A DNA stretch of 64,000 bases from Gemmatimonadota bacterium (lineage in GTDB: Bacteria > Gemmatimonadota > Gemmatimonadetes > Longimicrobiales > Gaopeijiaceae): NCBI GenBank assembly GCA_016209885.1, contig JACQVF010000078.1, forward strand, positions 1-64,000, in the 5' to 3' direction. Shown piece by piece: positions 4,881 through 20,910 of the stretch. The position numbers and the translations under genes were made by a program. The notes under the pieces were generated by a model, which was not told where the DNA came from, searched no databases, and saw only the letters and a program-made list of their open reading frames with translations. Within the stretch, counting starts at the first letter, position 1. Each line of letters starts with the position of its first letter.

Positions 4881-5107
4881 CGGCCCTCGCGCTCCTCCCG
4901 GATGACCGCGGCGGGCTCGGGCTCAAGCGCCACCCCCGGCAGCCGAGCGAGACTCTCCAGCAACTCCTCCCGCGTGGGACGCTGCAGCGCCCTCTCGATC
5001 TCTCTCAACACGTAGTCCGACATGGACATCCCCGCCAGCGCCGCCCGCGCCTTCAGCCTCCGGTGCACCTCCTCAGGCACATTACGGATCTGCATCATCT
5101 TTTTCAT
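4877..5107 (-). CDS. vapB: VapB/FitA-type antitoxin (ribbon-helix-helix)
   Basis: 76 residues from ATG 5107 (MKKMMQIRNVPEEVHRRLKA). The N-terminal ribbon-helix-helix (MQIRNVPEEVHRRLKARAAL, then SMSDYVLREIE) would bind operator DNA as a dimer. The C-terminal tail (ARLPGVALEPEPAAVIREE) should wrap around VapC and block its active site. An upstream in-frame ATG (5137) exists but overlaps the operator-like palindrome, so the start inside MKKMMQ is preferred. No strong ribosome-binding site is seen. Complex formation normally represses the operon. Confidence 0.88.
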   Translation of the reverse strand: MKKMMQIRNVPEEVHRRLKARAALAGMSMSDYVLREIERALQRPTREELLESLARLPGVALEPEPAAVIREEREGR

Positions 5108-5114
5108 GTAACGA

Positions 5115-5142
5115 ACATGCTTTGTATCATAGCACATGTCAA
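5115..5142 (-). promoter_or_regulatory. vapBC operator/promoter region
   Basis: An inverted repeat (ACATGCT at 5115-5121 against AGCACATGT at 5131-5139) lies in an AT-rich patch just before vapB. On the minus strand it contains TATGAT (5126-5131), a good -10. A TTGACA is also present but only five bases away, too close to be its -35. Autorepression by VapBC at such palindromes is typical of the family. Confidence 0.45.
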
Positions 5143-5311
5143 GTCGGCCAGTACGCGCTCAGGTCCGTTCAGCGCTCGATGCTTAACGGCCGCCAGTCGA
5201 ACGAGATCCGCCACGATCTCGGCGTCGCCTCCACCAAGCGCCCCGCCGCTCGGTCACAAAGCGGTCACAAAGATGGCCACTGAGCTGCCCATCCGCGGCC
5301 GGATCGCGCAG

Positions 5312-6043
5312 TCACTCGATGCCGTTGACCAGGTAATGGGCGATCTTGAGGTACTCGTTGACGTAGGCGATGAGGCCCTGCTCGGACTTCCACCAGTTCG
5401 ACTCGTCGAACTGCCCGTTCGCTGCGGGCGCCATGAGGATCTCGACGGGCAGACCCGCAAAGACCTTCCGGAAGATCCAGCGGGCACGACGCGTATGGTA
5501 ACCGGAGGTGACGACGATGATGCGCCGCACCCCGCCGCCATCGACGAATGCGCGTAGCGCCTGCGCCTCGTCGGCCGTGCTGGTCACGCCTGCCGGCACT
5601 GTGAGGACGGTGATCGCCGAGTCAGGGACGCCCAACTCCTTCAGCAGACGAACTGCGACGTCTGTACTGTTCGGCTGGATTCCGAGCGTCACGGTCGGCG
5701 GGTCCGGGAGCCTCGCGGTGGCGATGCGGGGGGCAAGTCCCGCGCCGTGCAGGAGCTTCGCGTAGAACGGCCTCGTGTACAGCCCGCCGTTGAGCAGGTA
5801 GATGAGGTCCGCCGGCGACAGCCGGTCTTCGACGGTCAGGAAACGGCCGAGCCCTGCGAGCGCTGGCGCTCTCAGCGCATAGGCGCCCAGGCCCGCCACC
5901 ACGAGCGCCGTGGCGACCCAGAGTAGCCTCCTCACTCTGTCCCTTCGTCGCCCAGCCGTACCCACAGGCATTCCTCGGGGAGCACCTCGTCGCGGTGCAC
6001 CGGCGGCTACCAGCTGCTTCATGGGGTCGGTGAGAGTGTTCAC
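5312..6043 (-). CDS. YdcF family (DUF218) membrane-anchored protein
   Basis: 243 residues. A single membrane helix at about 40-62 (LLWVATALVVAGLGAYAL) is followed by a DUF218/YdcF domain: SPADLIYLLNGGLYTRPFYA, then LGIQPNSTDVAVRLLKELGV, STADEAQALRAFVDGGGVRR and IIVVTSGYHTRRARWIFRKV. The conserved DEA and SxxH positions of the family are present. YdcF-like proteins are linked to envelope or polysaccharide metabolism, but their reaction is not established. The start is unsure: the GTG at 6043 has no clear ribosome-binding site, and internal starts such as MKQLVAAG are possible. The CapA-like gene lies 100 bases upstream on the same strand. Confidence 0.85.
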   Translation of the reverse strand: MNTLTDPMKQLVAAGAPRRGAPRGMPVGTAGRRRDRVRRLLWVATALVVAGLGAYALRAPALAGLGRFLTVEDRLSPADLIYLLNGGLYTRPFYAKLLHGAGLAPRIATARLPDPPTVTLGIQPNSTDVAVRLLKELGVPDSAITVLTVPAGVTSTADEAQALRAFVDGGGVRRIIVVTSGYHTRRARWIFRKVFAGLPVEILMAPAANGQFDESNWWKSEQGLIAYVNEYLKIAHYLVNGIE

Positions 6044-18795: not shown

Positions 18796-20358
18796 TCACC
18801 GCGAGCAGCGCACGGACAGGATGGGTGGCAGGTGCTCCGCGAAGGTGGACCACGTTCTGCCGGCGTCCGCCGAGCCGAAAAGCTCCCCGGACTCAGCGCC
18901 GAAATAGAGGCCGAGCGGCGCGTTGGCGTCGGTGCAGAACGCCTGCCGCAGGATCGTGAGGTAGGCGTTCTGCTGAGGGAGACCCTTCGCCCGCGCCCTC
19001 CAGTGCTGCCCGCCGTCCCGCGTCTCGTAGATCCGGAGCTTGCCCTGGGGCGTGACCCGGTCCTCGTCGCGGACCAGAGGGATCACGAAGGCGCGGTCCG
19101 GGTCATGGGGGTCCACGGCGATGGGGAACCCGAAGTCGGAGGGGAGCCCACGGTCCGTGCCGATGTCGATCCACGTCTCGCCGGCGTCGTCCGAGCGGTA
19201 CACGCCGCCGTGGAACTGCATATAGAGCGTCGCCGGCCGCAGCCGCGCGCGCTGCAGACTGTGGACGCAGTACGCGAGAGTGTTGGCCCGTGCCTCCTCG
19301 GGCACGTAACGGGGCACGAGCCCGTGGACGCCCCAGCGCCAGCTCTCGCCGCCGTCGTCGGTGATCCATACGCCCGCGGCCGAGATCCCGACGGCCAGCC
19401 GCTTGGGGTCTCCCGGCCACGTGCAGATCGAGTGGAGGCACAGTCCGCCCGCCCCCGCCTCCCACTGGGGCCGCGTCGGCTGGTCCCAGAGCGCGCGGTT
19501 GAGCGTCCAGGTGCGGCCCGCGTCCGTGCTCTTGAAAAACGCGGCGGGCGCGGCGCCGGCCCAGAGTACGCCGGGCTCGACCCCGGGCTCGATCACCCAG
19601 ATGCGGCTGACGGCCGCGCCGGCGTCCGGCGGGAAGGCCGGCCCGTCCGCCTGCTGCCACTCACCCGCGGGGTCGTTCGTGAGAAAGACATGCGGGCCAA
19701 ACTGCCAGTGGGTCACCGATGCGAGGTAGGTACCCGTTCGCGGGTCCCGCGTGGCGAACTCGACGGGGAGGCCGGGGAACGCACGCGCCACAACCTTCAT
19801 GGGACCACCTCGGGGACCGCGGAGCACGATGAGCCCTTTGCGCGTACCGACCAGGAGCTCCGCGCGTTCCGCGCGCGAGGGCCGCGAGGCAGGCAACGTG
19901 GCAGTGCGTGCCGGGACGGAGCGCTTGCCACCGGATCGGCGGCGAGCAGAGCGACGCGGCTTCGAACGCCGTTTTGCCGCGCCACGGCGTCCCGACTGTG
20001 CCCGGGTCGTGCCCCGCCGTCCGCCGAGCCGCCGCCTCCGGGGCTCACGCCGCGAGCGCGCTCGCTCCGAGCCGCCGCGCCGAGCCCGGCCCGCGCCCCC
20101 CGAGATCGCCGGGACAATGTGAAGCTCATCGCCGTCCGAGAGCGCGGTGTCCAGCGACGCTTCCGCGTCGTTCACGAACAGCTTCACGTGCTCTCGCAGC
20201 CGGCCCTGCTCATCGAGGATCCAGCCCCGCAGGCCGGCGTGCTGCACCTCGAGGCGCCGAATCACCTCGAGGGCTGTCCCGCTGGGAACGTCGAGCTGCC
20301 GAAGGCCGCCGGCTCGGTCCACGAGCGGCGACGGGAGGGTCACCGTGGGCATGTGCAT
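18796..20358 (-). CDS. MoaD/ThiS ubiquitin-like domain fused to BNR beta-propeller
   Basis: 520 residues. Residues 1-88 are a MoaD/ThiS-type ubiquitin-like domain (LDVPSGTALEVIRRLEVQHA, then LFVNDAEASLDTALSDGDEL and HIVPAISGG), including the Gly-Gly that normally forms the C-terminus. Residues ~89-165 are an extreme Arg/Ser/Gly linker. Residues ~165-520 form a cytoplasmic-type BNR propeller (LLVGTRKGLIVLRG, FFKSTDAGRTWTL, WITDDGGESWRWG, YRSDDAGETWIDI, LFGSADAGRTWSTF). No signal peptide is present. GGAGGGAG precedes the ATG. MoaD/ThiS proteins are often encoded beside this kind of propeller; here they form one frame. The Gly-Gly would need cleavage to act in sulfur transfer or conjugation. Confidence 0.82.
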   Translation of the reverse strand: MHMPTVTLPSPLVDRAGGLRQLDVPSGTALEVIRRLEVQHAGLRGWILDEQGRLREHVKLFVNDAEASLDTALSDGDELHIVPAISGGAGRARRGGSERARSRREPRRRRLGGRRGTTRAQSGRRGAAKRRSKPRRSARRRSGGKRSVPARTATLPASRPSRAERAELLVGTRKGLIVLRGPRGGPMKVVARAFPGLPVEFATRDPRTGTYLASVTHWQFGPHVFLTNDPAGEWQQADGPAFPPDAGAAVSRIWVIEPGVEPGVLWAGAAPAAFFKSTDAGRTWTLNRALWDQPTRPQWEAGAGGLCLHSICTWPGDPKRLAVGISAAGVWITDDGGESWRWGVHGLVPRYVPEEARANTLAYCVHSLQRARLRPATLYMQFHGGVYRSDDAGETWIDIGTDRGLPSDFGFPIAVDPHDPDRAFVIPLVRDEDRVTPQGKLRIYETRDGGQHWRARAKGLPQQNAYLTILRQAFCTDANAPLGLYFGAESGELFGSADAGRTWSTFAEHLPPILSVRCSR

Positions 20359-20910
20359 TCTCCCTCCAGTGCGTTTCAGGGTGGTCTCGAGACGACCCGC
20401 GAGCGCGGGGATCCCCGTGTTCCTGCTCTCGGCGTCTCGAGCGTCGAGCCGGCTGCGGGCCGCGCGCTCGAAGTCGTCGCCGGCCCCCGCGCGTGCCCCG
20501 AGAAACCGTGGGCCACGGCAGACACGTCAGCGAACACGCTCGCCGCCCAAGATGTGGGCAGGGGCGGGACGCAGCAAGCGCGCCCAGCGCGAAAGTGCCC
20601 AGCGCGGAGCGCGCGCGGGCCGCACCGGCACGCCGTGACCATGAAGGCCGCCCACCTGGCGCCCGGTCCCCCGAAGCAGGCGGTGCGGCAAGGATCGTGC
20701 GGCACGTGCGGCACGGATTGGCTTGTGTCGCGGGGAACCGAGCGTTGAACTGAACCGCTGCGCGGTGGCGGTCGTGGTGTCCTCCCGGGTAGTCGTCACT
20801 CCCGACACAAGTTGAGTGGAGCTCGCTCCGCGGCCCGGCCGAGGTGGGTCTGTGGAGTGGACGGGCCAAGTTGCGGTCTTGGCAACGCAACCCCGTCACA
20901 GGAGGGACCG
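20359..20910. other. No gene; possible left border of an integron-like cassette
   Basis: 552 bases with only shadow frames. GTTGAAC at 20744-20750 fits the GTTRRRY core consensus used at integron cassette junctions, but no partner RYYYAAC and no attC fold were found with it, so this is weak. An inverted repeat (GTTGCG/CGCAAC, 20870-20891) lies just before the next ribosome-binding site. Confidence 0.35.
20870..20891. promoter_or_regulatory. Inverted repeat upstream of the brnT-like gene
   Basis: GTTGCG at 20870-20875 pairs with CGCAAC at 20886-20891 across 10 bases. It ends 20 bases before ATG 20911. BrnTA systems autorepress through BrnA, so this could be an operator, or a leftover recombination site. 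No matching -35/-10 pair was evident. Confidence 0.3.

Follow-up and report, generated by a model that had tools for sequence, protein, structure and literature searches.

In-frame fusion of a MoaD/ThiS-like domain to a BNR β-propeller in a Gemmatimonadota bacterium, with fused and separate counterparts in several phyla

In Mycobacterium tuberculosis, the MoaD-MoaE fusion MoaX is cleaved between Gly82 and Ser83, and this cleavage is needed for activity (PMC4326299). Sulfur carriers that are capped beyond their terminal Gly-Gly are uncapped by a QbsD-type protease (PMC6006322), and an archaeal JAMM protease was shown to cut linear fusions, with bulky residues after the Gly-Gly blocking the cut (PMC6043591). 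Iyer, Burroughs and Aravind (2006) predicted that JAB proteins may free ThiS/MoaD from fusions and listed the combinations MoaD-MoaE, ThiS-ThiG and Ubl-ThiF; no propeller partner appears in the text of that paper (no matches to propeller, BNR or sialidase; PMC1779556).

Here we examined a 64,000-nucleotide stretch of Gemmatimonadota DNA, referred to as the window, which carries a MoaD/ThiS-like domain fused to a BNR propeller. As in MoaX, an N-terminal MoaD domain with an internal Gly-Gly is joined to a partner (PMC4326299), the residue after the Gly-Gly is small (Ser in MoaX) and separate-gene counterparts exist. However, the partner in MoaX is MoaE, a molybdopterin synthase subunit, whereas here it is a BNR propeller and MoaE is encoded elsewhere in the genome; moreover, cleavage is proven for MoaX, while it is predicted here. 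The capped carriers QbsE, PdtH and PtmS2 also have residues past the Gly-Gly that need removal, in their case by the JAMM-type QbsD (PMC6006322, PMC1779556), but their caps are of a few residues and the protease lies in the same cluster; in the window an entire domain follows the Gly-Gly, and the JAMM genes lie elsewhere in the genome. The CysO-Mec-CysM pathway is comparable in that the MoaD domain is nearest to CysO-type structures and the genome has a cysM-JAB-CysO::E1 operon, although the pair described here has its own MoaD paralogue, with a propeller and not cysM as the neighbour. The literature search retrieved no published description of a MoaD-propeller pair.

Domains of the fused gene

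The MoaD/ThiS-type domain, a linker and the propeller are encoded in a single open frame of 520 codons (Table 1), whose ribosome-binding site was judged good (GGAGGGAG). The ThiS family PF02597 matched residues 26-88 and passed its cut-off of 22.5 bits both in the full protein (30.2 bits, E 7e-7) and with the domain alone (35.2 bits, E 2e-8). The nearest solved structures were 4n6e chain B (ThiS/MoaD) and 3dwg (CysO), and AlphaFold2, which was confident for the MoaD domain (pLDDT 90-97) and for the propeller, agreed with the MoaD fold. Among NCBIfam models, SAMP1 (NF041918) ranked first with 46.2 bits, below its equivalog cut-off of 60 bits. The Gly-Gly is not a free C-terminus, as it is in the ThiS/MoaD family: 432 residues follow it in frame, so the carrier would require processing if it acts as one.

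Table 1. Positions of the fused gene, its parts and related features (window numbering unless another contig is named)
Feature	Position	Strand	Basis or remark
MoaD-propeller ORF	20358-18796	(-)	single open frame
Shine-Dalgarno-like GGAGGG	20362..20367	(-)	read from sequence; GGAGGGAG immediately 5' of ATG
Start ATG; another in-frame ATG	20358; 20352	(-)	
MoaD/ThiS-like β-grasp domain, residues 1-88, end AISGG	20095..20358	(-)	PF02597, structures, AF2
Gly87-Gly88 codons GGG GGC; predicted cleavage site after Gly88	20095..20100	(-)	sequence
Arg-rich disordered linker, residues 89-166	19861..20094	(-)	composition, codon-position GC, pLDDT
BNR/Asp-box β-propeller, residues 167-520	18799..19860	(-)	profile, phmmer, Foldseek, conserved residues
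Stop codon of fused ORF	18796..18798	(-)	ORF list
Large BNR/sortilin-like propeller protein	17846-14730	(-)	just downstream of fused ORF
Junction of one fused relative	L010:5247-5290		GGAGGAGG and in-frame ATG after Gly-Gly
Nonomuraea MoaD-like gene	L073 ~5060-5390		after propeller; ends LPALA
CysO::E1 fusion, own genome (C35)	L078:4534-6198		with rhodanese domain; downstream of cysM and JAMM gene
Other CysO::E1 fusions	L042, L043, L048, L050, L052, L054-L056, L058, L061-L064, L088		

The linker contains 28 Arg and 3 Lys in 78 residues (40% Arg+Lys). AlphaFold2 predicted residues 85-156 to be disordered, with pLDDT below 40 across most of the linker, and its codon-position composition (GC2 0.87, GC3 0.76) is unlike that of both flanking domains. 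A tandem-repeat origin was considered and dropped, as no repeat was found in it. Such an Arg-rich linker has so far been seen in the window's genome alone; in the remaining fusions the linker is short (about 3-25 residues) and not basic, so it was also dropped as a general feature and its composition is a local oddity.

The propeller matched BNR/Asp-box repeats (PF02012, E 6e-8), with Asp-boxes present, from about residue 167 to 520. A full-length homologue is PDB 3b7f, a putative BNR glycosyl hydrolase from Ralstonia eutropha JMP134 (Reut_B4987), whose solved chain has no MoaD domain (phmmer E 2.7e-54); it was also the best Foldseek match, with TM 0.87 normalised by target. Across 29 homologues, W254, H309, H366, Q381, H383, F409-G410-F411, R434 and R471 were invariant or nearly so, and C364 was conserved in 27. 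Since several conserved residues fall on strands expected to be innermost by their order in the blade (from predicted secondary structure), a putative channel site is plausible. None of the glycoside-hydrolase family models tried against the propeller passed its cut-off, and GH74 propellers resemble it by fold only; labels such as sialidase and glycosyl hydrolase are based on the fold.

These results bear out what the earlier note had read from the letters: a MoaD/ThiS domain fused to a BNR propeller (one frame, with PF02597, BNR/Asp-box and 3b7f matches), a Gly-Gly at residues 87-88 with some 430 residues after it, and a highly basic linker. Apart from this gene, large BNR/sortilin-like propeller proteins of about 1000-1200 residues were observed at 31 places in the same genome, one of them just downstream of the fused ORF.

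Fused and separate genes in relatives

In a first sample of 22 relatives taken from genome contigs, in-frame MoaD-propeller fusions were identified in L009, L010, L011, L018, L019, L021, L022, L024, L026, L028 (with a later frame break within the propeller) and L029, while L012-L017, L020, L023 and L025 have separate overlapping or adjacent genes. A search of actinobacterial relatives added three fusions and seven separate pairs. In total, 14 relatives from several phyla are fused (15 with the window), with linkers that vary in length and sequence and are unrelated to the window's, and 16 pairs are separate, adjacent or overlapping, as the earlier note had said of such genes. On the propeller tree there are at least six switches between the fused and the separate state, in which the sister genes L010 and L013 also differ. 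The carrier-propeller combination, fused or as separate genes, thus recurs across several bacterial phyla, and the fused ORF combines an internal-Gly-Gly carrier, at the N-terminus, with a protein that relatives encode as a neighbour gene.

The pair was found in Actinomycetota, Acidobacteriota, Alphaproteobacteria, the window's own class and Pseudomonas aeruginosa/Cupriavidus, and that the two genes are neighbours in either order speaks for a functional link. In the P. aeruginosa and Cupriavidus plasmid records MoaD is followed by the propeller, that of P. aeruginosa being annotated as an exo-alpha-sialidase. In the window's own class the usual order is reversed, the propeller preceding a MoaD that ends exactly in Gly-Gly, and propeller identity is only about 40%. 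The window's version is nearer to genes of Alphaproteobacteria, Actinomycetota and Acidobacteriota (propeller identity up to 72%) than to those of its own class, which suggests that it was acquired by horizontal transfer. Propellers with no annotated MoaD neighbour were seen in Rhodobacter and Marivivens (L071 and L075), and visual inspection of ORF lists from 14 relatives revealed no conserved wider operon. We also noted, in Nonomuraea, a MoaD-like gene after the propeller that has no Gly-Gly at its end; a loss of carrier function there is possible.

In 13 of the 16 separate pairs Gly-Gly is encoded by GGA GGN, placing GGAGG a few bases 5' of the propeller start codon. This motif lies over the Gly-Gly codons of only one of the 15 fusions (p 4e-5), and GGA is used for the first Gly in those 13 of 16 versus 18 of the 128 other Gly codons of the same MoaD genes (p 7e-8); both p values were computed on related sequences and overstate the number of independent events. 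It is likely that GGAGG over the Gly-Gly codons is the propeller's ribosome-binding site in the separate pairs, a double use of these codons for which the literature searched gave no precedent. The window's own codons contain no GGAGG, unlike those of most separate-gene relatives. The sole exception among the fusions, L010, retains GGAGGAGG and an in-frame ATG after the Gly-Gly within a fused frame, so it could yield both the fusion and a free propeller. Subunits of one complex are often encoded by coupled overlapping genes (PMC10666635). Fusion may take the place of translational coupling, which is suggested in the relatives whose Gly-Gly codons double as the likely ribosome-binding site, and either arrangement would give matched amounts of carrier and propeller.

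Gly-Gly conservation and the JAMM protease

The 15 fused MoaD domains have a median pairwise identity of 49%, yet 13 of their 91 columns are invariant, including A84, S86, G87 and G88; the chance of at least four invariant columns in the five-residue tail is 0.0012. Gly-Gly is kept in all 15, though the glycine codons vary. The residue that follows is Ala in 11, Ser in two, Gly in one and Asp in one; it is thus small in 14 of 15, in agreement with the preference of the archaeal JAMM (PMC6043591). In L019, the shortest linker modelled, AlphaFold2 modelled the Gly-Gly as coil at low confidence (pLDDT about 61). Ten of the separate relatives have a carrier capped with one to three residues after the Gly-Gly, the recorded caps being QA, I, G, TA, S, A, ER, CV and AYG. 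The Cys-Val cap belongs to the separate carrier of L130 (genome G125) and is like those of capped siderophore-pathway carriers.

The earlier note had proposed looking for JAMM, MoaE and ThiF-like genes in the genome; all are present, elsewhere than at this locus. Of three Prok-JAB genes, one lies in a cysM-JAB-[CysO::E1-rhodanese] operon and not beside the fused gene. Separate ThiS-ThiG and MoaD-MoaE genes are also present, which makes it unlikely that the fused carrier serves molybdopterin or thiamine synthesis.

Taking E below 1e-16 as a strong match, a Prok-JAB (Mec-type JAMM) gene was found in 23 of the 25 genomes whose carrier is fused or capped, versus 2 of the 20 with free-Gly-Gly pairs (Fisher p 3e-8), counts that include many genomes without a completeness estimate. 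No strong match was present in the genomes of L011 (fused) and L124 (capped), and at a looser threshold three free-Gly-Gly genomes have JAB matches (E 1e-11 to 1e-13). Within the window's family, a strong JAB is lacking from five genomes with free-Gly-Gly pairs, of which G060 has a weaker match, whereas the window's genome has a strong one. On the other hand, most of the fusions come from relatives in which JAMM is common, with a base rate of 40 in 61 pair-less genomes among 80 actinobacterial relatives. A phylogeny-aware sign test, with only three independent contrasts, was not significant, JAMM going in the same direction in 1.4 of the 3 on average and almost never in the opposite one. Because of the high base rate and the few independent contrasts, we downgraded co-occurrence from proof, and the tie of JAMM to a non-terminal Gly-Gly is suggestive only.

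A further arrangement was observed in at least 14 genomes of the window's class, where a CysO-like carrier with internal Gly-Gly is fused N-terminally to a ThiF/MoeB E1. Each of these genomes has a JAB match, often as a close neighbour, and CysO::E1 is an independent case of an internal Gly-Gly with JAMM.

Readings of the fusion

The features of the junction suggest that the fusion is a pro-protein, which is its best-supported reading: a CysO/MoaD-type carrier joined to the cytosolic BNR propeller with which it would cooperate, the carrier being freed by a predicted cleavage after Gly88. We lean towards this reading by a little. A single polypeptide is made, as the sequence and the independent in-frame fusions show; a protease, most likely the Mec-type JAMM of the genome, would then cut after Gly88 and free the carrier's C-terminus; an E1-like enzyme of the ThiF/MoeB type, also encoded in the genome, would adenylate and thiocarboxylate Gly88, as expected from the family; and the freed propeller, judging from recurrent gene adjacency, would be the carrier's partner. 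It may act as a scaffold, or else as a sulfur acceptor or enzyme that uses its invariant His, Arg and Trp residues, which probably lie along its channel. When the earlier note raised the pro-protein, it did so beside a carrier recruited as a binding module. Invariant Gly-Gly, small following residues, JAMM and E1 genes and the MoaX precedent now speak for the former, with cleavage still a prediction, and Gly-Gly conservation weakens the latter.

It is highly improbable that two overlapping genes were merged in this assembly by an error in the sequence or by a recent destructive mutation. The genome is indeed a 115-contig assembly, and the Arg-rich linker, with its odd codon-position profile, is unlike those of the other fusions. 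However, both domains share one frame and the linker holds no in-frame ATG or GTG at which the propeller could start, its single TTG (residue 155) having no Shine-Dalgarno sequence visible on reading, so a single merging frameshift, which the earlier note had placed near 20090, is unlikely. The ribosome-binding signature of the separate state is also missing here and 14 relatives are likewise fused. We therefore dropped the artefact explanation; the ORF is a real fusion. The interruption between domains that the note had envisaged in relatives does occur in the 16 separate pairs, against which stand the 14 in-frame fusions.

If the real fusion stays intact, MoaD could serve the propeller as a module for docking or binding, with the Gly-Gly a remnant or a flexible turn, which we regard as unlikely. 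Cleavage here is predicted, in L019 and L026, whose linkers are the shortest, MoaD is separated from the first strand of the propeller by no more than about 4-8 residues, propellers can occur without MoaD, and the MoaD neighbour in Nonomuraea has no Gly-Gly. Against an intact fusion stand a Gly-Gly that is invariant over 15 fusions from several phyla, the small residue that follows it and, even with the short linker of L019, a junction modelled as coil. Even less probable, in our view, is that the freed carrier is conjugated to proteins in SAMP/Urm1 style with the propeller selecting the targets: the SAMP1 model scores best and the genome encodes both JAMM and E1, but that score is below its cut-off (46 of 60 bits) and the nearest solved relatives are CysO-type sulfur carriers.

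Under the pro-protein reading, a broader proposal, which we hold only tentatively, is an undescribed two-part system that delivers thiocarboxylate sulfur from a dedicated CysO-like carrier to a cytosolic BNR propeller enzyme, in which coupling and a JAMM-cut fusion would be interchangeable and fusion would occur only with the protease. If so, this would be a sulfur-carrier pathway with an as yet undescribed acceptor, spread across several phyla. The separate propellers have no signal peptide and begin at once with the first strand; propellers now annotated as sialidases would then probably not be secreted glycosidases. Where the Gly-Gly codons overlap a likely ribosome-binding site, there is a concrete path along which such fusions may form and revert, and the fused, capped and free carriers found in nature make up a series that gives a handle on the need for a JAMM protease.
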